Below are positions 6,625 through 23,628 of a stretch of DNA of 42,460 nt, piece after piece. The position numbers were made by a program, and so were the translations under genes. Within the stretch, counting starts at the first letter, position 1. Each line of letters begins with the position of its first letter. Under the pieces are notes generated by a model. The model saw only the letters and a list, made by a program, of their open reading frames with translations. It was not told the DNA's origin and ran no database searches. Origin of the DNA: Gemmata sp. (lineage in GTDB: Bacteria; Planctomycetota; Planctomycetia; Gemmatales; Gemmataceae); the NCBI GenBank assembly GCA_025055115.1, contig JANWYJ010000059.1:1-42460 (forward strand). The letters are read 5' to 3'.

Positions 6625-6846
6625 TTAGAGATCGGAGCAGACTTCGACGTAGTTGAGCAAGGTGCGTTGCCCGACCAGTGGCCGGAGCGTTTCTTGAGCC
6701 ATCTGTTTGAGGTAGTAGCTGGAGACTTGTCCGGTGATGACCACTTTCTTGTCGTCGGCGGTGACGACCAATCGGCGCAATTGCCCGATGGGGCTGCTGG
6801 TCAGGGCTTCCGCGGGTTCCGGCGGCAGAGTTGAGCAGGTGTTCAT
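6625..6846 (-). CDS. Small BON-domain protein (73 aa)
   Basis: BON domains are short alpha/beta modules found in periplasmic and membrane-associated proteins and thought to bind phospholipid or other ligands. Almost the whole protein is one BON domain: the strand-turn LRRLVVTADDKKVVITGQVSS, then the helix YYLKQMAQETLRPLVG, then the final strand LLNYVEV. A very good ribosome site (GAAGGAG, 8 nt before the ATG) fixes the start. There is no signal peptide, so it may act in the cytoplasm. The gene stands alone, divergent from the glycosyltransferase gene. Confidence 0.82.
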   Translation of the reverse strand: MNTCSTLPPEPAEALTSSPIGQLRRLVVTADDKKVVITGQVSSYYLKQMAQETLRPLVGQRTLLNYVEVCSDL

Positions 6847-7212
6847 CGCGTCGCTCCTTCGGGTGATTCAGTCGGGCGAATATCCGACCCACGAACGCGG
6901 CGACGAGCGGCGATTCGCTGCGTGCCGTCGCGAAGGGGGAATCGTTCCGTAACGACAGTGGAAGGAGGCCAGAATGGTGGCGATTCCATCCGAATTTTGT
7001 GCCGAGGCGAACCGGAGATTCCATTATCTACCGGATGTTATCCGCGTTGGGGTCAGCTTGCAACGATTTTCCTCGTTTTTCTTCATTTTTACACAACTTG
7101 AAGTAAAACTTTGCTATTCCTACACTTCCGGTTGATCATCGTCTGGGTGGCCTGTGGGCGGATCGTTGGGGCGGAGAGGCCTGAACCGGTTGTTCTGACG
7201 GTGTTTTGGCGG
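6847..7212. other. Divergent promoter region
   Basis: This 366-bp gap lies between the divergent BON and glycosyltransferase genes. The part near 7060-7130 is clearly AT-richer than its surroundings and holds a good promoter candidate (7098-7126). No gene is supported. Confidence 0.5.
7098..7126 (+). promoter_or_regulatory. Sigma-70-like promoter candidate
   Basis: TTGAAG (7098-7103) and TACACT (7121-7126) are separated by exactly 17 bp in a locally AT-rich stretch, about 85 bp before the glycosyltransferase start. This follows the standard bacterial -35/-10 pattern and is otherwise untested. Confidence 0.4.
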
Positions 7213-9012
7213 ATGATGTGGCGCATTTTTCAATATCGGCCGTGGCGGTCGGCCCGTTTAGCGTGGATGGTCACGCTGGGGGTTCTGCTTGCTGGCGTGC
7301 CGCTGTTTGTTTGTATGCCGCCGTGGAACGATGTCACCCTCCACGACATGGTGGTGCGGAGTATTCTCCGCGGCGGGGTCCTGTATCGTGACATTTTCGA
7401 TACCAACCTGCCCGGCATTGATTGGGCGATGGCCGCCATCCGCGCCACGTGCGGATGGAGTTACGAAGTTCTGCGGATCGCGGATTTGCTGGTTATTGGT
7501 GCTAGCTTGCTCGCATTGAGCGGCTGGATTCGCGCCAGTGGCGGAACAGAGGCCAGCGTCGCGTGGTTTGTGGCGGCCGCGGTGTTGTTTTATCTGTTCA
7601 CGTCGGAATTCAATCATGTTCAACGCGATCCGTGGATGTTCTTACCTGCGGTGGTCGCGGCCCGCGGGCGGCTGTGGCGTTGCCAACGCGGTCTGACGGC
7701 CTCTCCAGCGGCGCGCTGGGGGGGGGCGATCCTGGAAGGTTTCGTTTGGGGCTTAGCGGTGTGGGTGAAACCCCATGCGTTGGTTGTGGCGTTCGCGGTG
7801 TGGTGGGCGTCGGTCGGGCTGCGGCGACGAGTGGAATCACCGCCACGGCTGGCCGGCGAGTTCGTAGCGCTGGTCGGCGGCGGGCTGTTGGCCGGTGGAC
7901 CGGGGGTGGCGTGGCTGATCGCCACCGGGGCGTGGCCGTATTTTCTCGACATTTTCCTGCATTGGAACCCCAGCTACCTGGCTGATTCGGGGCCTTTGGG
8001 GTACCGCTTTGTCACCGTCTTCAACTGCTTTCGCCCGTGGAGTTTACTTCATTTTGCGGCCCTGCCGTTGGCGCTCATGACCCTGGCCGAAGCGGTGGTC
8101 GGGCCGGTGTTGCGGCGGCCGGTCCTGCTGGACTGGAACGATCCACAGCCCGAGTTGCGCCCGGCGCGCGTTTTGCTAGCGGTGTTGTACCTCAGCTGGA
8201 TGTTCCAAGCGGTCTGCATTCAAAAGGCTTTCGACTATGTCCACATCCCGCTGACGTTTCTGGGTATGGCGATCTTGGCGGGGCACCGCTGGTGCTTCGG
8301 TTTCGCTTACTTGGTGTGGTTTCTCGTGGTCGCACTGGTGTTGTTGGCGGCGGATGCTTCGTGCAGGGTCCGGGCCGTCGTCCAAGCGATCAATCCCTCG
8401 AGCAGTTTCGTGAAATTGGAGAAATACCCCCTTTTTGATGGCGAAGTGATGCAACTTTGGCCACGCTGTTGGCGGGAAGGCGGTTCACCGGAACTCCGCG
8501 ACAAAATCGGCCATTACACCGACATTCACTGCGGCACGCGCTGGCAGGAACTCACCGCCGTGGCGGAGTTTCTTCGTACCCTGGAACCACCGCTGGGTCC
8601 GGGCGAATTGAACTGCTGGCACGATAGTACGCATCCGCTCTATCTGCTGCTCGATCTCGAACCCGCGACGCGCTACATGCACTATGGCACCGCCTTCGGC
8701 ATCCGATCGAAGCGGGAGTTGATAGCCGACGCGGTCCGCCACAGTCGGCAACGCTATGTCGTCAGTGATCTGGTACGCGTAACTCTTGATCGTCACGCAC
8801 CTTACGACCCCAACGCCTGGCGTGCGGGCGATCCGTTGCCGGTGTGGTTGCCGCCTTCGGAGCGCGCTAAGTTCCCCTGGAATCAGCCGGTGGTGTTCCG
8901 CTGCGGCCGCTATGTGGTTCATCGCATCGACCCGAGCCGGCCGTTGGGTGTCATTCGTGTTCCGCCGTGGCACGACCTGGACCGTCTCGCCGAGCTTGGA
9001 CCCGACGAATAA
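7213..9012 (+). CDS. Multi-spanning GT-C type glycosyltransferase (GT39-like)
   Basis: A 599-aa polytopic membrane protein resembling the GT39/ArnT-like group, which transfers sugars from polyprenyl-phosphate donors on the outer face of the cytoplasmic membrane. After the first membrane helix (LAWMVTLGVLLAGVPLFVCM) comes an acidic segment typical of GT-C enzymes (WNDVTLHDM, then YRDIFDTNLPGIDW), in the loop that normally carries the catalytic Asp. Many hydrophobic segments follow up to about residue 420. The last 180 residues are soluble and probably extracytoplasmic. The start is uncertain: ATG 7213 is used, but ATG 7216 or GTG 7201 are possible and no strong ribosome site is seen. A run of nine G (7718-7726) lies inside the gene. 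The acceptor is unknown. It converges on the FAH gene with a 33-bp gap. Confidence 0.75.
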   Translation: MMWRIFQYRPWRSARLAWMVTLGVLLAGVPLFVCMPPWNDVTLHDMVVRSILRGGVLYRDIFDTNLPGIDWAMAAIRATCGWSYEVLRIADLLVIGASLLALSGWIRASGGTEASVAWFVAAAVLFYLFTSEFNHVQRDPWMFLPAVVAARGRLWRCQRGLTASPAARWGGAILEGFVWGLAVWVKPHALVVAFAVWWASVGLRRRVESPPRLAGEFVALVGGGLLAGGPGVAWLIATGAWPYFLDIFLHWNPSYLADSGPLGYRFVTVFNCFRPWSLLHFAALPLALMTLAEAVVGPVLRRPVLLDWNDPQPELRPARVLLAVLYLSWMFQAVCIQKAFDYVHIPLTFLGMAILAGHRWCFGFAYLVWFLVVALVLLAADASCRVRAVVQAINPSSSFVKLEKYPLFDGEVMQLWPRCWREGGSPELRDKIGHYTDIHCGTRWQELTAVAEFLRTLEPPLGPGELNCWHDSTHPLYLLLDLEPATRYMHYGTAFGIRSKRELIADAVRHSRQRYVVSDLVRVTLDRHAPYDPNAWRAGDPLPVWLPPSERAKFPWNQPVVFRCGRYVVHRIDPSRPLGVIRVPPWHDLDRLAELGPDE

Positions 9013-12600: not shown

Positions 12601-13596
12601 TCAGCGGCAGCAGCGACCGCGGAAAAGACCGCCGCGTGCCGAGCCGCACCCGCCGCTCATCCCGCAGGGGTCGCAAGGAGTGTAGCAGGGGCTGCACACG
12701 ACAACCGGAGCCGGCGTGCAAACCGCCACCTTCACAACCTTCTCCACCTGGGTGGGTTTGTACACGTCGCGGGTGCCCGTCTTTTCGACTTTCTTGTAGT
12801 GGACCACGTCCACTTCCTTTTCGACATCGACCAAATAACCCACTTTGCGCGTGCCTGTTTTTTCTACCGGGACGCATTTCATCACTTCGACTTCCTTTTC
12901 CGTGTGGACCATCTCATAGGTGGTCACGGGGCGTTTTTCCTTGGTTTCGACACGCTCGTAGGTGGTCACGTCCACTTCCACTTCACGGGTGACCATTTGC
13001 CGCTGCATCACAGTCTTGGTGACGACTTGCGGGCACGGTGGCGGACAGGGGTGGCAGTCGCTCTCACAGCCCCTCTTCTTGCCACACAGCCGGGCGAAAA
13101 AGCCACCGCGGGACTCACAGGAGGGATGGACAACATAGCTGACCGTGACCGGCACGCACACATATTCGCAGATGGTCCGCTTTTGCTTGGTGACGACCGG
13201 CTTGAAGCTCACCAGGGTCACTTCTTTTTCTTCGGTCTTGGCTTTCCATTCGCAGACCTTGACCTTCTCCTTGGCCTTCACGTATTCGTGAGCCGTGTAC
13301 TTGTACTGTTCATCCTTGTAGGCCATTTCCTTGACTTTTACTTTCTCTTTTTTCTTTTCCGGCTCGTACACGAAGTACTTGTACTCCTCGGTGGTTTTGA
13401 CCCATTCGGTGACCATGACCTTGCGGTCTTCGTAGGTCACAGTGGCGCAGGGTGTGCCGCAGGGGCCGGCGTAGGCGGTCATGCCGCAGGGAGAACCGCA
13501 GTCCGATTGGCGCTTGCCGCCGAAGCCATAGGCGCTGGCCGAGGTCAGCCCCATCACGGCCGCAAGCGCGACCACACTCAGAAGTCGCAGTTTCAT
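12601..13596 (-). CDS. Secreted Cys-rich protein with Val/Lys/Glu repeats
   Basis: A 331-aa exported protein: the signal peptide MKLRLLSVVALAAVMGLTSASA is textbook. A Cys/Gly/Pro-rich segment follows (about 33-50). The body consists of imperfect beta-strand repeats rich in V, T, K, E and Y, such as MVTEWVKTTEEYKYFVYEPE, MVTREVEVDVTTYERVETKE and twice KTGTR with the related VEKEVDVV/VEKVVKVA. A Cys-rich middle (CESDCHPCPPPCP) and a Cys-rich tail (CSPCYTPCDPCG...GRCCR) flank the repeats. The layout resembles the YTV-type repeat proteins of planctomycetes, which may contribute to the cell surface; I cannot confirm the family. GGAGG seven bases before the ATG supports the start. The gene has its own terminator and is probably monocistronic. 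Confidence 0.85.
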   Translation of the reverse strand: MKLRLLSVVALAAVMGLTSASAYGFGGKRQSDCGSPCGMTAYAGPCGTPCATVTYEDRKVMVTEWVKTTEEYKYFVYEPEKKKEKVKVKEMAYKDEQYKYTAHEYVKAKEKVKVCEWKAKTEEKEVTLVSFKPVVTKQKRTICEYVCVPVTVSYVVHPSCESRGGFFARLCGKKRGCESDCHPCPPPCPQVVTKTVMQRQMVTREVEVDVTTYERVETKEKRPVTTYEMVHTEKEVEVMKCVPVEKTGTRKVGYLVDVEKEVDVVHYKKVEKTGTRDVYKPTQVEKVVKVAVCTPAPVVVCSPCYTPCDPCGMSGGCGSARGGLFRGRCCR

Positions 13597-15297: not shown

Positions 15298-17112
15298 CTA
15301 GTTTTTGCTGGCCAGCGGGATGACGCCATCCCAGCCGGGGGGGGGCGTGCGGTTGTTTTTCAGAATGAACTCGGTGAGAACGTCTTTGCCGCGATCGTCG
15401 GGCGGTACCCGATGGAGAAGGCGGTACGCGGCGTGCCAGTCGCCGGCCAGGAAGGCATCGAGGGCTTGGTCGTAGGCGTGGAGATCAGCCTCAGTGAGAA
15501 TGCCGTCGGGGCGTTCGCTCTCAGGGGGCGGGGCCGGGGGAATCAGTTCCGCGACGACCAGGGGCGTTTCCAAGCCGTAGGGGCGGACTTTGGCCATGCG
15601 GCGGACCCGGCCGACCTCCGGGGGAAGTTGTTCCCGGACTGCTTGAGCGGTGGGTTCGTCGACAAGAATCGGCACCCGTAAGAGCTTCGTCATATCTTGC
15701 AGTCGCGAGGCGAGATTGACGACCGGACCAAATACTGTCACTTTCACTTGTTCGGGAGGTCCGATCCCTCCCGCGACAGCGCGACCGGAGGCGATGCCAA
15801 TACCGACGCGGAAGCCAAACAGCGGATGAGCCGGGTTGCGACCGACCTCTTCAAACGCGGCGCGAATGCCCAGAGCGGCTCGGCAAGCGTATTCCACTTT
15901 TCCCGGTTGTTCCAATGGCCAACCCCAAAAACCCATCGCGGCATCGCCGAGGAAATCGGCAATGGCCCCACGATTGTAGAGAATATTTTGCGTCATCAAC
16001 CCCAAGGCCGCACTGACGCGGTTCAACAGTTCCAGCAAGCGATCACTGGCCTCTTCTGCGGTTCGGGAGAAGCCGCGCAGGTCGCAAAACAGCACGGTGA
16101 CATCGGCTTCGCGCGGCTCCAGCGCGCGCGGAGCGTCGCCACTGGAGAGCACACTGAGCACACCCGGGGAGAAGAAACGGCGGAAGACGCTTTGCCGCTC
16201 GCGGAGTAGTTGCACTTGCCGCAGAGAGCCGAGAATATCTGCGACCAATTCTGTGAATTTCACGTCGTCGCGGAGTTCGTTCGATTCCCACGGGGCTAGC
16301 AACGTGGAGGCCGCCGCCCTGGGGAACCCCCCCGCGATGTAGAATCCCCAGCCACTGCACGCTTCACCGGGAATGGGTGTGCAAAAGGCCCAATCGAACT
16401 GGTCTTGCAAGGTATACGCGTTGGTCATTCCCGAGGCGGTGGGAGTGTTTCCCCACACATGCAAGACCGTTTGCTTCTGCTCACTGACGGCAGCCTGAAC
16501 CAAACGCCGGCTGGGTGCAAAATCCCCTTTGCCGGCCAAGCGGCGATCCCAGTGCAAAACCCGCATGGTGGCGTCTGGGGCGGCAATGGCGACAATCGCT
16601 ACCGCATCGGCACGACGAATCCCGGCCAGAAGCATGTCGACCAGCCGCCCGAACAGGTCGGCATCGTCACTGGCACTGGAAATAACCTCCGGCAAGCGGC
16701 TGAGAACATCGAGTCGGTGCGGGGCGTCGCGGAAGGCGAGATTGTCCAGAGCATGCGGCGCGAGCGTGCGAGCTTCCAGAAGTGGCCGTTCGGGGCTGGG
16801 CGAAGCTGGCGTGGCGGCTGGATCGGCCAGTGTGAAGAGGGTCCGACCGATCACGAATGACCCCCCCGGTGACACTTCGAACGTCTCCACCGGTTGGCCG
16901 GCGTAGAATATCGGATTGGTGGCGTCGCGGAGCTTGCGGACGTGCAGTTTCCCCGAACGCACGGTCAATTCCGCATGCCGTCGAGCCAAAAATGGCTCCC
17001 ACGGCACTGTCCAGGCTGGGGATTCCCGGCCCAAAATCACGATGTCGTCGGGTGGAAGGGCTTTCCGCCACGACTCGGCTGGGTTCGGTCCTTGCGCCAC
17101 CAGAAGCATCAT
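15298..17112 (-). CDS. FHA-GAF-class III nucleotide cyclase
   Basis: A 604-aa cytoplasmic signalling protein. The FHA domain (about 20-95; GRESPAW, ARRHAEL, then DATN) should bind phosphothreonine peptides. A GAF-like sensor region follows (about 125-290). The class III cyclase domain (about 330-525) makes cAMP or cGMP in its family. Metal-binding Asp residues are present in LFCDLRGFS and FLGDAAMGFWG, and the transition-state Asn/Arg in VVNLASRL. The two substrate-selecting positions are unusual: the Lys expected before F-x-G-D is Asp (IADFLGD), and the Asp expected in IGDTVN is Pro (FGPVVN). Base choice or activity may therefore differ. The start is uncertain: ATG 17112 follows 12 codons after a possible earlier start at 17148. 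The gene is divergent from the epimerase. A run of nine C on its strand lies near the 3' end. Confidence 0.87.
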   Translation of the reverse strand: MMLLVAQGPNPAESWRKALPPDDIVILGRESPAWTVPWEPFLARRHAELTVRSGKLHVRKLRDATNPIFYAGQPVETFEVSPGGSFVIGRTLFTLADPAATPASPSPERPLLEARTLAPHALDNLAFRDAPHRLDVLSRLPEVISSASDDADLFGRLVDMLLAGIRRADAVAIVAIAAPDATMRVLHWDRRLAGKGDFAPSRRLVQAAVSEQKQTVLHVWGNTPTASGMTNAYTLQDQFDWAFCTPIPGEACSGWGFYIAGGFPRAAASTLLAPWESNELRDDVKFTELVADILGSLRQVQLLRERQSVFRRFFSPGVLSVLSSGDAPRALEPREADVTVLFCDLRGFSRTAEEASDRLLELLNRVSAALGLMTQNILYNRGAIADFLGDAAMGFWGWPLEQPGKVEYACRAALGIRAAFEEVGRNPAHPLFGFRVGIGIASGRAVAGGIGPPEQVKVTVFGPVVNLASRLQDMTKLLRVPILVDEPTAQAVREQLPPEVGRVRRMAKVRPYGLETPLVVAELIPPAPPPESERPDGILTEADLHAYDQALDAFLAGDWHAAYRLLHRVPPDDRGKDVLTEFILKNNRTPPPGWDGVIPLASKN

Positions 17113-17319
17113 GAGTGTGTGCCCGCACCGGTTGTCAGCCGCGGCCACCTACCCCCCCAGGGTGCGGAAACCGATTCGTCCCTGGCAGATTCCCCTGTTC
17201 GTCTCCGGCTGTTGCCAATTTACTGGTTCATAAGACGGCTCACCAGAGAAACTGGGCGGCAGGTGGAGAAATTCGGGGCGGTCGGGGCCGCGTGGTCTGT
17301 TTCTACGGAGTCATCCGGC

Positions 17320-18515: not shown

Positions 18516-21500
18516 TCACTGCACCAGCGGCAGCCATTCCGTCACATCGAAACGGGCGTGGGGGGAGGTGTGCGGGCTGGCCAGTGATTGGTAGTACGCC
18601 GGTTGGCATGCCGCAAACAGTTCCGCCACTTCGTCGGGGCGTAAGTTGTGATGTTCGCGGCAAAACATCAGATCGGTGGCCGTGCCGTTGACAGCAATCA
18701 GCAGAGCCGGCGGGACGACCGCCTTGACCCACTGACCGAATTGACGGCCCGAGTTGGTATCGGGCAGCAGCACCAGCGTTTCGGCCTCACTTTCGCTTCC
18801 ACAGGGAGGAATGGCCCGAGCGTGGTAGTTTTTGATACGTTCGGTCACTTCGACCTTCCGCGCCTGCGCTGTGGCGACCTCGACTTCCGTCACGTCGGTA
18901 ACCGGGAGCAATTCGCTCAAAAACGCTGTGGTTTGCTCGACGAGGGGGCCGACGAGGGTGCGATTCATGTCGGCGTTGAGTAAACATAACGACTTCAGCC
19001 CGCCACGCGGTTCCAAGACCAGTTTTTGCAACGCCACTTCGAGCCGTTGCACGTCGTCGGGCTTCATGGTTTTGACAATTTTGTTGGCAGACCGTTCGAT
19101 GTGAGTATCCCCGGCGGGCAGAACGATGTTGAGCGTGTTGGTGGGGTGCAGGGTGTGTTGCAGGGCTTCCTCGGCGACGGAAACGGGCGTATCGGCGGAG
19201 GGAGGCAGGTGAGCCAGTGGTGACTCCAACGCTTGGATGACGGTTTCGATCCGGGTGCGACAGAACGCCAATTCCCGCAGCTGTTCGTCGATGCGGTTCC
19301 GTAGCGCTCGGTAGAACTTGGCCGTGGCATCGGCGAGGTCTTCTTGGAGACGGACGCGGGCAAAGGTGCGGATTTGTTCGAAAAAATGCCGCATGCTCCG
19401 ACCACTGCGGCCGCCGAAGAAGCTGAACGATCCACTGCCCGCCTGGCACAAGTCGTGGGCGGCTTGCACATCGCTTTTCGCCTGCCGGGCTTTGACCGTC
19501 AACGGTGCGATGCGGGCTTCGGCAGCTTCGGCCCAGCTGTGGCAGTGCTGGGCGAGTTGCTGCAGGGCTGATTCCATCGCTCCCAGTCGGCGGCCTGGGA
19601 GTTCTTCCAAGGGGCGAACGATGGCGGCGCATTCGTTGCCCCACATTTCCGCCACGCGTTTGATGGCGTCGTCGAGCAGGCGGGACAGGCGGCTGCGGCG
19701 AACGGAGCTATCCTGTTCGTTGGCGGGGCGTGTACCGATCAGATCGCGGGCTTGATCCCAGACGGTCCGGGACCACACCGCGGCATCGGGGTGCCGCCCC
19801 ACCGCAGCCACCTGGGCTTCCAAATGGGTCAACCACCGCTCGATTTGCTCCGCTGGGCCGCCATCGGGGCCGCGGCCGGCTTCTTGTTCGATCCGTTCGC
19901 GAATGGCTTCTGGCTTCAGTCGCGCATCATTCACCACCTGGGCCACCACCTGTTGAACCGCGGTCTTGTCGTCGGGTTGTTCGTCGCTTTTCCACACCTT
20001 CAGCAAGCCGACAGTGATTTTTTGGGCGGCACTGCGCAGCAACAATCCGCGGGGGAACCACACCCCGTAGGTGCCGAAGGAACGGAACGGGCTGCGGTCG
20101 AAACCGGCTGGCCGCTGCCGCAACTGTTCGAGAGCTGGCCCCAACGGTGTGGTCAGTTCGTGGGCCACATAGCCGGCCAAGTGGGAAATGCAATCGCGGA
20201 AGTAGCCGGATTTCCGTTCGGGCAGCGGCAATAGATAGGTGGAATTGAAGGGTAGGCCGTTCCCTTCCACTTTGGGGCCTTCCAGTCCGCCGTATTGGCC
20301 GACGAAGGTTACATCGGGATCGGCATAGTGATTCAGCTCGGTGATGGTGGCGTAGATGTTGGCCAGTTCGGCATCCGGGGAATTGGGATCGTGGGGGGCG
20401 GCGGCGTAAACGAAGGCCGTGATGGGGCTGGCGGCGGGGCTGATGCGCGTCAGAACCCGGCGCACGGCATAGCCAAGGTCGATGAGCATACCACCGCTGC
20501 CGCCGCTAGCACTGGCGAAAATATACACCTGTGGGGTATGGTCACGCACCAACAGCCCGGTTTGGTCGGCCGACTGGGCCAGGGATTCCGGGTGGGTGGC
20601 GACCTGGAGTTCGCGGCGCAGCCGCGTGACGAAGCGCAGGTAGTTGTCGCAGAAGGCGAGGCGACCTAACGCCCGGCAGCCGCCCGCCTGCAAACTGCGC
20701 GGAATGGCGTAGAGTTTTTCCCGGGGCAGCCAATCGAGAATTTGTTCCAGCTGGCGGCGGCGATACTGTGTGACCGGCTGAAGCGGAACGGTGAAGACCT
20801 CATCGGCACTGAGGGCCACGTCGGGCGGGGCATTGATCGCTTTGGTGACGGCATCCGGGTCGCAATCAACGTACAGGAAGCGGAAACAGGGGACTTGCGC
20901 CACATCGCCCACGCGGTCGGTCAGACGGCAGCGGATTTCTTGCAAGGCGCGGCGGCCAAAGCTACCCACCCCCAACAGAATGGTCGGGCGCAGGATACCG
21001 GGTTCGCGTTGGGGGGCGGTTTCGCCCAACAGATGATCTTCGTCGATTTCGGCGACCGGTTCAGGAGCCATCATCGGCGCGGTGGGTCTGAGCACAGCCA
21101 TGCTGGCACGCGAGCCACCGTTTGCGGGCGTCAAATCGACATCGTGAATCGTACGTCCAGCACCCACCCAAGCCGTTGGTTCGCGAATCCCCGAACCGCT
21201 GCCGGAGCCGCTGCTGCTGCTGCTGTCGCGCGGGCTGCCCAAGGCCCGGATAAATGCCGTGCACGATGGCCAGCGTTCCTCGGGGTTCTTCGCCAAGGCC
21301 CGAGCCACAATCGGCTGATCCTCCACTGGCAACATCGACAGGTCCGGCGGCTCACTCATGTGTTGCAAGGCCAACTGCCGGATATTCTTGCCTGCGAACG
21401 GCCGCTTTCCGGTCAACAGTTCGACATATACGATAGCCAGGCTGTATTGGTCGGAATGCTTGCTGATTTTGTTCTGAAAGGTTTCTGGGGCCGCGTATAT

Positions 21501-22049
21501 GGGGGTCACTCCGCCCATCAATCCCGAGGAACTCGACCGTTCCAGTTGTTTGACCAGCCCAAAGTCCGCGACTTTCACTCGGTCGGCCACCACAAAGAGG
21601 TTGCGTGGTTTGACATCCAGGTGTTGCAGGTTATGCTTTTCGATCAAATGATCCAGCCCGACGGCGGCATCGTCGAGAAAACCCAGCAGCAGGTCACGAG
21701 GAATCCCGGGCCGGCCAGCCGCTTGGTATTCTTGCAGCGTTTCGTGCAGGTTCTTGTCGGCCAGTTCCATGACAATGACTAGTTCCCCGCCGACATTCTG
21801 GATCTGTTCGATCGACAGCACAAACGGATGCCGCACTTGCTTGACCCGCTCCAGGGCTTTCATCTCCTGTCGCGCGCGGGCATCGTCGCCATCGAGGGCG
21901 TTGAGATTACCGTAGACAAATTTGATCGCCTTGTGGATACCACCGGGGGCTACGCACTTCCAGACTTCGCCAAAGCCGCCCGTGCCGATCGGCTCAAGAA
22001 GGCGATAACCGGGAAGCGGTTCCGAATCCGGTTCACGGAGCCAATTCAT
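18516..22049 (-). CDS. Ser/Thr protein kinase fused to a tubulin/FtsZ-like GTPase domain
   Basis: A 1177-aa protein. Residues about 14-265 are a Hanks-type kinase with an intact set of motifs: glycine loop GTGGFGEV, Lys in KAIKF, catalytic loop HLDVKPRN (about 142-149), DFG (about 160) and AAPETF. A Ser/Gly linker follows (about 272-285). From about 350 the protein matches the tubulin-like family: a nucleotide-binding start (ILLGVGSFGRRAL), the tubulin/FtsZ-type glycine motif SASGGSGGM (about 510-519), and a long alpha/beta core to about 800. The rest (to about 1100) is mainly helical and may form coiled coils. No membrane segment is seen. The kinase could control GTP-driven assembly, or assembly could cluster the kinase; both are inferences. 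ATG 22049 was chosen at the kinase N-terminus; an upstream in-frame start at 22157 adds low-complexity sequence. No strong ribosome site is visible. Confidence 0.85.
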   Translation of the reverse strand: MNWLREPDSEPLPGYRLLEPIGTGGFGEVWKCVAPGGIHKAIKFVYGNLNALDGDDARARQEMKALERVKQVRHPFVLSIEQIQNVGGELVIVMELADKNLHETLQEYQAAGRPGIPRDLLLGFLDDAAVGLDHLIEKHNLQHLDVKPRNLFVVADRVKVADFGLVKQLERSSSSGLMGGVTPIYAAPETFQNKISKHSDQYSLAIVYVELLTGKRPFAGKNIRQLALQHMSEPPDLSMLPVEDQPIVARALAKNPEERWPSCTAFIRALGSPRDSSSSSGSGSGSGIREPTAWVGAGRTIHDVDLTPANGGSRASMAVLRPTAPMMAPEPVAEIDEDHLLGETAPQREPGILRPTILLGVGSFGRRALQEIRCRLTDRVGDVAQVPCFRFLYVDCDPDAVTKAINAPPDVALSADEVFTVPLQPVTQYRRRQLEQILDWLPREKLYAIPRSLQAGGCRALGRLAFCDNYLRFVTRLRRELQVATHPESLAQSADQTGLLVRDHTPQVYIFASASGGSGGMLIDLGYAVRRVLTRISPAASPITAFVYAAAPHDPNSPDAELANIYATITELNHYADPDVTFVGQYGGLEGPKVEGNGLPFNSTYLLPLPERKSGYFRDCISHLAGYVAHELTTPLGPALEQLRQRPAGFDRSPFRSFGTYGVWFPRGLLLRSAAQKITVGLLKVWKSDEQPDDKTAVQQVVAQVVNDARLKPEAIRERIEQEAGRGPDGGPAEQIERWLTHLEAQVAAVGRHPDAAVWSRTVWDQARDLIGTRPANEQDSSVRRSRLSRLLDDAIKRVAEMWGNECAAIVRPLEELPGRRLGAMESALQQLAQHCHSWAEAAEARIAPLTVKARQAKSDVQAAHDLCQAGSGSFSFFGGRSGRSMRHFFEQIRTFARVRLQEDLADATAKFYRALRNRIDEQLRELAFCRTRIETVIQALESPLAHLPPSADTPVSVAEEALQHTLHPTNTLNIVLPAGDTHIERSANKIVKTMKPDDVQRLEVALQKLVLEPRGGLKSLCLLNADMNRTLVGPLVEQTTAFLSELLPVTDVTEVEVATAQARKVEVTERIKNYHARAIPPCGSESEAETLVLLPDTNSGRQFGQWVKAVVPPALLIAVNGTATDLMFCREHHNLRPDEVAELFAACQPAYYQSLASPHTSPHARFDVTEWLPLVQ

Positions 22050-22403
22050 GGCAGTCGAACCTGTACACGAGGGGCGAAATGGACAAGCGGCCGTTGGGTG
22101 CGGTCTGCCCCACCAGGCCGGCTGTCCCGGGCGAGTTCCGGGAAAAAGCCATATCAACCGTAAGTCACACCCAACCTGAAGTCCAATCCGCTATCACAAC
22201 TCCCGACCCCATGGCCGCTCGAATTGAGAACCGAACAAAATTCTTGCGACTCTTCAGTGAAAAACTACTCCCTACGGCCATTGACAATCACTCTCTCACA
22301 TGGGAATCTCTGACATGGGAATCTCGCAAGGACGAAGGTCCAGTTCGAGGGGATTATCCGAGGCGATAGTGAACAGTCATCGTTTTCTATCGAGGGCACG
22401 ATC
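22050..22403. other. Divergent promoter region
   Basis: This 354-bp gap lies between the kinase-tubulin gene and the small membrane protein gene. A perfect -35 hexamer TTGACA lies at 22281-22286 on the + strand, but the matching -10 (GAATCT at 17-bp spacing) is poor. A 13-bp direct repeat overlaps that position (22298-22325). Confidence 0.45.
22298..22325. repeat. Tandem direct repeat, 2 x 13 bp
   Basis: ACATGGGAATCTC occurs at 22298-22310 and 22313-22325 (period 15). It lies in the leader of the small membrane protein gene. Confidence 0.85.
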
Positions 22404-22727: not shown

Positions 22728-22767
22728 TTCACTCAGTTGCCAAAGCATTCACTCAGTTGCCAAAGCA
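22728..22767. repeat. Gene 3'-end tandem repeat, 2 x 20 bp
   Basis: Identical copies of TTCACTCAGTTGCCAAAGCA lie at 22728-22747 and 22748-22767. The second covers the last codons and TGA stop of the leftward Cys/Gly-rich gene; the first is a perfect copy just beyond the stop. Confidence 0.95.
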
Positions 22768-23217
22768 GCCGCCAGCGCAGCCTTTGCGTTTGCCGAACAA
22801 GCCGCCGCCGTCACGCAGACCTAAGAAACCACCACCGCGGCAACCATTGCTGCTGCCGAAGCAACCGTGGCTGTAAGAAACGCTGCCGTGGCAGCCGGCC
22901 GGAGTCGTGACGGCGGGCGTGGCTGGAGTCGTCGGGGCCGCTGGCGTGGCTACGACCGTTCCGACGCAGCCCGCCGAGGTGCTCCCGATGCAGCCGGCGC
23001 TACTGCCGTGGCAGCCTTTCCGATCGCGTAGACCCAGGAATCCGCCCCCGCGGCAACCCCCACGGCTGGTGCCGATGCAGCCGGCGCTGGCGGTGTGGCT
23101 GGTGCCGATGCAACCAGCGACATAGCCACCGCCATAGCAGCCGGCGCTGTCCTTCTTCCCAAAGCTGGCCATGTCGCCACCGGAAGTGGCCGCTACTAAC
23201 AACACTACGCTGTACAT
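22753..23217 (-). CDS. Cys/Gly-rich secreted protein with GC-x-G repeats (154 aa)
   Basis: This resembles small Cys/Gly-rich proteins common in Gemmataceae; the function is unknown. It starts MYSVVLLVAATSGGD, a short hydrophobic leader compatible with export. It then contains many G-C-[IHYFVR]-G units, including AGCIGTS, AGCIGS, AGCVGT, KGCHGS and HGCFGS. The longer block CRGGGFLGLRD occurs twice (near residues 55 and 129), which points to internal duplication. A Pro/Thr/Ala spacer lies in the middle. The many cysteines suggest cross-linking or metal binding outside the cytoplasm. GGAGG lies 8 nt before the ATG at 23217, so this start is preferred over an upstream in-frame start at 23244. Confidence 0.78.
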   Translation of the reverse strand: MYSVVLLVAATSGGDMASFGKKDSAGCYGGGYVAGCIGTSHTASAGCIGTSRGGCRGGGFLGLRDRKGCHGSSAGCIGSTSAGCVGTVVATPAAPTTPATPAVTTPAGCHGSVSYSHGCFGSSNGCRGGGFLGLRDGGGLFGKRKGCAGGCFGN

Positions 23218-23628
23218 CAGGTCGTCCTCCAAATCCCCAACCACGTCCGCGAAGAATCCCCGGCCGCGGCTCCGTGTCCGCGACTAAGCAGGTCTTCGTT
23301 TCGCTCCGGTTAGCTCAGGTTGTGTTAAATCGCCCTCGAACCGTTGGTGTGGCGAGGTATGTTGTTGTAGTGAGGATAGTAAAGCCAGGAGAATTGGGAG
23401 TCAACGGCAATTTGCGTCGTTTAGACCAATCTTTATGTGTTATAGTCGGACTTGTCGGTCCTGAATTGTGGATGGTATTATCTGATTTAAATGCCGGTCG
23501 TAGGCCCATACCGTTTGCGTCACCAACGCCGGCGCAGAAAAACCGGTTATGCCCTTCGTGGTAGTGTGCCGATGGCGTAACCTACCAATACTACGCTTCG
23601 TTGCCCGACAACCGGGGTGAGGTTCGTC
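23218..23628. other. Divergent promoter region, locally AT-rich
   Basis: This 411-bp gap lies between the Cys/Gly-rich gene and the membrane protein gene. The stretch at about 23310-23500 is clearly richer in A and T than its surroundings and probably holds promoters; no pair of hexamers is convincing. A 96-codon frame inside has no ribosome site and I do not call it. Confidence 0.5.

Follow-up and report, generated by a model that had tools for sequence, protein, structure and literature searches.

In the window, by which we mean the whole 42,460-nt stretch of contig JANWYJ010000059.1 from a Gemmata sp., the minus strand at 18516-22049 encodes a kinase-tubulin, that is, a Ser/Thr protein kinase and a tubulin-type domain in one polypeptide. 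From its sequence and predicted models, we identify the protein as a planctomycete kinase-tubulin of the FtsZl1 (Tubulin_2) family, in which a complete tubulin fold is predicted to carry an active-type kinase by way of a disordered tether. This architecture was known before, as planctomycete fusions of this family have been in print since 2010. What our analysis adds is the reading of a long helical region as an insertion in the tubulin fold, the constraint on the kinase, a shortening of the T4 loop in the clade of this protein, and the finding of two further kinase-tubulin paralogues in the same genome, which has no match to the FtsZ/tubulin family PF00091. The features of the gene are listed below with the evidence for each.

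18516..22049, minus strand: whole kinase-tubulin gene of the FtsZl1 / Tubulin_2 family, 1177 amino acids (translation, Pfam, start compared with relatives)
21270..22007, minus strand: Ser/Thr protein kinase domain, residues 15-260 (PF00069; folded in the full-length model)
21600..21623, minus strand: kinase catalytic loop HLDVKPRN, residues 143-150 (H, D, K and N kept in 85/85 and 30/30 rows of the two sets described below)
21558..21566, minus strand: DFG motif, residues 162-164 (kept in 85/85 and 30/30 rows)
21006..21230, minus strand: predicted disordered Ser/Gly linker, residues 274-348 (predicted local distance difference test, pLDDT, below 50 in the full-length model)
19989..20984, minus strand: tubulin-type nucleotide-binding domain, with the first strand and helix of what is read as the C-terminal domain, residues 356-687 (PF13809, model, CetZ match)
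20487..20513, minus strand: T4-type glycine loop SASGGSGGM, residues 513-521, shorter by one residue than that of the paralogues (alignment, tree)
18798..19985, minus strand: helical / coiled-coil insertion as predicted, residues ~689-1084 (secondary structure of the model; clade identity 36%)
18585..18785, minus strand: final strands and helices, residues 1089-1155, taken to complete the tubulin C-terminal domain (model elements E745-752 to H802-811; range of the VIA-align match)

The mechanical open reading frame begins upstream at a TTG codon at 22157. The ATG at 22049, which gives the 1177 residues, is likely to be the start of the gene because M1 is nearly invariant (at least 90%) among 66 aligned relatives, themselves cut to begin there. 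The closest of these (L065, an uncultured Gemmata sp.) has an 89% identical kinase-tubulin, and other near relatives come from Gemmata, Gemmataceae and unclassified planctomycetes. That the gene fuses a Ser/Thr kinase to a tubulin relative had been proposed in an earlier note on this DNA, which named profile searches and structure prediction as ways to check it. Both supported the proposal. In the Pfam scan, PF00069 matched residues 15-260 (E 6.4e-32, 111.4 bits, cut-off 31.7) and PF13809, Tubulin_2, matched residues 357-679 (E 3e-33, 116 bits, cut-off 27); PF00091 gave no match in the protein at E <= 1. The predicted structure was of tubulin type, with the glycine motif lying in that fold and not in another one.

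The AlphaFold model of the tubulin part (residues 345-1177, from an input of 69 sequences) has a mean pLDDT of 87.2 and a predicted template modelling score (pTM) of 0.73. A Foldseek search with this model gave a best E of 1.3e-5, and the titles of the 37 matches at E <= 0.001 name tubulin, microtubule, gamma-tubulin complex, ciliary apparatus, CetZ, TubZ or BtubA. The comparison by VIA-align with archaeal CetZ (3zid_B) places 293/342 residues at a root-mean-square deviation of 3.2 and a Z of 27.2, with residues 9..814 of the model lying on residues 1..344 of CetZ. The Z for a second CetZ (4b45) is 25.6, and the predicted tubulin fold extends over both domains, as in CetZ. Because the match spans the CetZ chain from end to end, the model reads as containing a tubulin C-terminal domain, with a helical part of ~395 residues (model residues 345-740, protein 689-1084) interrupting the fold. 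The earlier note had described these helices as a long tail; by the model, they are placed inside the fold instead. CetZ differs from the window protein in that it has no kinase and no 395-residue helical insertion; its aligned chains have 334-342 residues, and identity is 12-13%. FtsZ and eukaryotic tubulin (PF00091) share the fold of the nucleotide domain according to the model, but differ in lacking a profile match to the window protein and in that its T4 is one residue short. The full-length model has a pTM of 0.57 and gives no usable placement of the kinase relative to the tubulin part. The labels T7, H9 and S8 were assigned from the order of structural elements, without a residue-level structural alignment.

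FtsZl1 was described by Makarova and Koonin in 2010 (PMC2875224), and the available text of that paper reports four planctomycete members with an N-terminal kinase. In the same text, neither the T6-H7 region nor a tubulin-like C-terminal domain was confidently identified in FtsZl1; the authors thought filament formation likely, via a novel mechanism, proposed a role in membrane remodelling, and left both the whole fold and polymerisation undecided. A 2023 paper states, in the part available, that an N-terminal kinase is present in the Tubulin_2 proteins of Planctomycetes (PMC9871819), and the accessible part of a 2024 paper is a further printed source on the known kinase-tubulin kind (PMC11032199). 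Our literature search, conducted with most subscription journals outside its reach, found no experimental study of the fusion. The window protein agrees with the FtsZl1 of the available 2010 text in its profile family, in the kinase-first order of the planctomycete members, and in having an FtsZ-like domain followed by a coiled-coil and helical region in the secondary structure of the model. It differs in its short T4 and in its surroundings, as the available text notes that FtsZl1 operons frequently, though not as a defining trait, hold genes for a vWA protein, a GTPase and OmpA, and the Pfam scan found no vWA, OmpA, GTPase or HSP70 gene among the ten window neighbours. It also differs in that our model would put a tubulin C-terminal domain at the very end of the chain, where the available text of PMC2875224 reports none detected.

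To describe the kinase, we used two sets of proteins. The first has 85 near-full-length rows, namely 89 proteins minus four that were too short (L111, L115, L114, L140), and includes three identical pairs (L110/L063, L107/L059, L112/L054), each being the same gene in two collections. In a FastTree tree with long branches flagged, rooted on rows taken as kinase-less, these 85 proteins divide into a window-type clade (n=54, support 100) and paralogues (n=31). Kinase motifs had served to find the loci behind this set, a route that favours intact kinases; the second set, 30 fusions found via PF13809 (28 from the class and 2 from the own family), is free of that bias. K43, E62, H143, D145, K147, N150 and DFG are kept in all 85 proteins of the first set, and the same catalytic residues are kept in all 30 of the second. 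The catalytic residues of the active-type kinase claimed in the earlier note are all present, although HLDVKPRN is without the arginine of HRD, for which we use the name non-RD kinase. The best PDB sequence matches of this domain are 7naa (a Ser/Thr kinase) and PknA. The bacterial Hanks kinases PknA and PknB share the domain with the window protein, which differs from them in having HLD for HRD, no PASTA domain in the Pfam scan, and the fusion to tubulin. Mean identity within the window-type clade is 71% for the kinase, 56% for the N-terminal part of the tubulin, 39% for its C-terminal part, 36% for the helical insertion and 22% for the linker. By these identities, conservation within the clade is highest in the kinase, which is under strong constraint. 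The linker, a Ser/Gly stretch already noted from the sequence, is the least conserved part and is predicted to be disordered throughout.

The glycine motif SASGGSGGM, which the earlier note had placed at about 510-519, lies at residues 513-521, where it aligns with the T4 loop of the relatives but is one residue shorter. The paralogues have forms like GGTGSG, and the superfamily T4 signature GGGTG(S/T)G is not matched by the window protein. The short form occurs in 47/54 window-type rows, with full length in the other seven (L109, L116, L107, L112, L059, L054 and L056) and in 31/31 paralogues; when identical rows are counted once, 46 of 51 window-type rows are short and 5 full. Sequencing error was considered as a cause and is ruled out by the equal length of the loop in the 47 rows. 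In the tree built without the T4 columns, two shortening changes suffice, the first in the common ancestor of the 47 rows (support 97), the other in L181/L182. By this tree, the short T4 is a derived loss within a family whose relatives keep the loop length. We note that L181 and L182 (genomes G312 and G339) are divergent kinase-tubulins of one own-family genus, with T4 shortened separately.

In tubulins, T4 is a phosphate-binding loop, and it is plausible for this reason that its change alters the handling of guanosine triphosphate (GTP) in the window-type clade. Ordinary GTP-driven assembly cannot be assumed where T4 is shortened. Other parts of the nucleotide site appear to be retained. The window protein retains T1 (GVGSFG), and the T1 glycines and most T4 glycines are still conserved. 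At a T7-like place, by inferred placement, there are G637, an acidic residue 641 and R644, of which residue 641 is acidic in 49/54 clade rows and 31/31 paralogues. The canonical T7 motif, NxDxx(D/E), was not found in the window protein by eye.

PF13809 matched in 14/294 phylum genomes, 59/148 class genomes and 50/61 genomes of the own family. Among 30 places of the same class, the kinase and the tubulin share a frame in 28, while L151 has a tubulin without kinase and L154 was unmatched by the tubulin profile. In the phylum sample, PF13809 also matched nine genomes from other classes, of which seven regions were compared (all but those of G209 and G261). A kinase was seen in none of the seven: five have a tubulin without kinase (in one of them, L175, the gene is cut at its N-terminal end), and two (L179, L183) were unmatched by the tubulin profile. 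A kinase-less gene, L180, is found in the own family. The N-terminal kinase is a trait of the planctomycete lineage and does not define the family. In the tree, the seven rows that were taken to lack the kinase all lie to the same side of a branch with support 99. A single kinase-tubulin fusion event fits this quick tree, rooted as it is on those rows. As a separate observation, in L171 (G360:C301) the kinase-tubulin frame ends early and the C-terminal part lies in a second frame, 6836-7363, suggestive of a frameshift or a split gene.

The genome that contains the window (4.9 Mb, 98% complete) has three kinase-tubulin genes: the window gene and two paralogues on different contigs (C59:50449 and C44:16192), both of which begin with a kinase. 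At a threshold of at least 300 bits (the best paralogue reaches 280 bits), the window-type gene occurs in 43/61 own-family genomes, each read as having a single copy (which in G328 is in two pieces, on separate contigs), and seven further genomes have the family with no window-type match at this threshold. In 12/61 own-family genomes two Tubulin_2 genes are adjacent on the same strand, with starts 3-4 kb apart. Both members of such a pair have the kinase and a full-length T4 in L134, L137 and L139, the paired genes being ~50 bases apart in the last two. The genomes G306 and G347 (94% and 91% complete) have the window type alone, which speaks against an obligatory partnership with paralogues. 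PF00091 gave no FtsZ match in the genome of the window at E <= 0.001, and across the own family it matched in 1/61 genomes (G294), inside a Tubulin_2 gene. This gene, G294:C1:583301-584338 (L025, L184), scores against both families and is a possible bridge between them.

How could a kinase be employed by a tubulin of this kind? Our preferred reading, which we hold to be possible and offer tentatively, is that of an assembly scaffold that clusters kinases, with weak hydrolysis in this clade. On its own or together with the paralogues, the tubulin part would assemble into an oligomer or filament, while the helical insertion would make contacts with partners or neighbouring subunits. Crowded in this assembly, the tethered kinases could then phosphorylate one another as well as any bound clients. 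Since the T4 phosphate loop would have lost one residue in the ancestor of the clade and has remained short, the window-type subunit probably hydrolyses nucleotide weakly or not at all, and would be less a dynamic, treadmilling filament than a regulated scaffold. Several points weigh against this reading. Self-assembly and the contacts of the insertion are assumed, and the shortened loop may still bind, even hydrolyse, GTP, as T1 is kept and residue 641 is acidic in most clade rows. The PDB sequence profile search with the same alignment returned mostly helical-bundle and coiled-coil matches and no tubulin, so that the link to the fold rests on Pfam and the predicted structure. The neighbourhood analysis found no client or phosphatase. 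A conserved operon around the gene was rejected, as none was found among 66 loci (38 of them at least 16 kb), the window neighbours recurring in L065 alone, apart from two genes that recur in L108 as well.

Two other readings would assign a different role to the nucleotide site. The short T4, the long helical insertion and a kinase more conserved than the rest of the protein would all agree with a pseudo-tubulin receptor, whose tubulin part neither binds nucleotide nor polymerises and serves with the insertion as a docking platform aiming the kinase at its clients. We consider this rather unlikely, as the conserved glycines of T1 and of most of T4 suggest nucleotide binding. At the other end, the protein could be an ordinary dynamic cytoskeletal GTPase that in spite of its short T4 binds and hydrolyses GTP and forms CetZ- or FtsZ-like filaments, with its own kinase controlling turnover by phosphorylation. 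The predicted complete fold, closest to CetZ, the retained T1 and the acidic residue near the T7-like position are what one would expect of such a protein, and filaments by a novel mechanism were judged likely in the available text of Makarova and Koonin (PMC2875224). Shortening of the T4 signature in 47/54 rows and the want of a canonical T7 by eye argue in the opposite direction, making this an unlikely reading. By analogy with microtubules, in which one of two tubulin sites does not hydrolyse GTP, it is conceivable, if improbable, that Gemmataceae build a mixed kinase-bearing polymer where the two full-T4 paralogues, whose genes are adjacent in several relatives, hydrolyse GTP and the single-copy short-T4 protein is a non-hydrolysing subunit or cap. 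If true, every subunit would bring a kinase, the polymer would be a signalling surface, and it would be a bacterial filament of a new kind.

The surroundings of the gene were weighed for two further roles. Kaur and colleagues (2020), in the available part of their work, proposed conflict (immunity) systems dependent on nucleoside triphosphates (NTPs), which include tubulin homologues and kinases as well as FtsH-vWA ternary systems, these last occurring in planctomycetes too. That the kinase-tubulin is part of such a system, or coupled to one, would be suggested by a vWA protein of the FtsH-ternary type (PF19997, PF19996) at L005:1194-2636 (minus strand), on contig C44 of the same genome and 3.2 kb from the paralogue, with relatives at L129:14850-16298 and L140:2613-4079. 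It does not form an operon with the paralogue, from which it is separated by two genes on the other strand, ThiC and one more. An FtsH gene also lies downstream, in the opposite orientation, in 10 (L070-L073, L076, L077, L088, L098, L106 and L113) of the 41 window-type loci that, among 51 with the gene end found, have at least 2.6 kb of downstream DNA; it starts within ~410 bases of the kinase-tubulin gene in 7/10 and spans distant clade members. The FtsH of L076 is by Pfam of the classical kind, with a single AAA domain and M41, as opposed to the double FtsH in the available account of the Kaur systems. PADLOC kinase models match the protein, but are confined to its kinase part, and vWA, HSP70 and GTPase genes are absent among the ten window neighbours. 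We regard a conflict system as very improbable. The other role is a stand-in for FtsZ in planctomycete division, which we regard as most doubtful. The genome has no PF00091 FtsZ, the only match in the own family lies inside a Tubulin_2 gene, and PF13809 is present in 50/61 own-family genomes, but it is unmatched in 89/148 class and 280/294 phylum genomes, and FtsZl1 typically occurs beside ordinary FtsZ in other bacteria, according to the available text of PMC2875224. A general replacement of FtsZ was rejected on this distribution of PF13809, FtsZ itself having been searched in the own genome and the own family.

Whichever role applies, the predicted model favours a whole tubulin fold in an FtsZl1 protein, a point left undecided in 2010, and locates its extra helices. 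Relatives with a short and a full T4, in one family and even in one genome, offer a natural comparison on the need for GTP hydrolysis. Gemmata and Tuwongella have heavily invaginated membranes, as stated in the available part of PMC8567305. As these two genera have such membranes and the own family has, apart from the match inside a Tubulin_2 gene, no PF00091 FtsZ, a widespread cytoskeletal kinase would bear on how these cells are organised.

By Pfam, the ten window neighbours are an epimerase, a nucleotide cyclase, a GGDEF response regulator, a 3-keto-disaccharide hydrolase, an S41 peptidase, an HTTM-like protein (below cut-off) and four unmatched proteins. The nucleotide cyclase (15298-17148, minus strand; PF00211) has an N-terminal part that resembles FHA and GAF domains by eye, unreported by Pfam. 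FHA domains bind phosphothreonine, and a link between the FHA-like part and the kinase is conceivable; the pairing recurs only in L065. Two neighbours without a Pfam match have unusual compositions. The one upstream of the gene (22753-23244, minus strand) is a small Cys/Gly-rich protein with repeated AGCIGTS-like units, and the other (12601-13596, minus strand) is a cysteine-rich protein with Lys/Val repeats and, by eye, a signal-like start.

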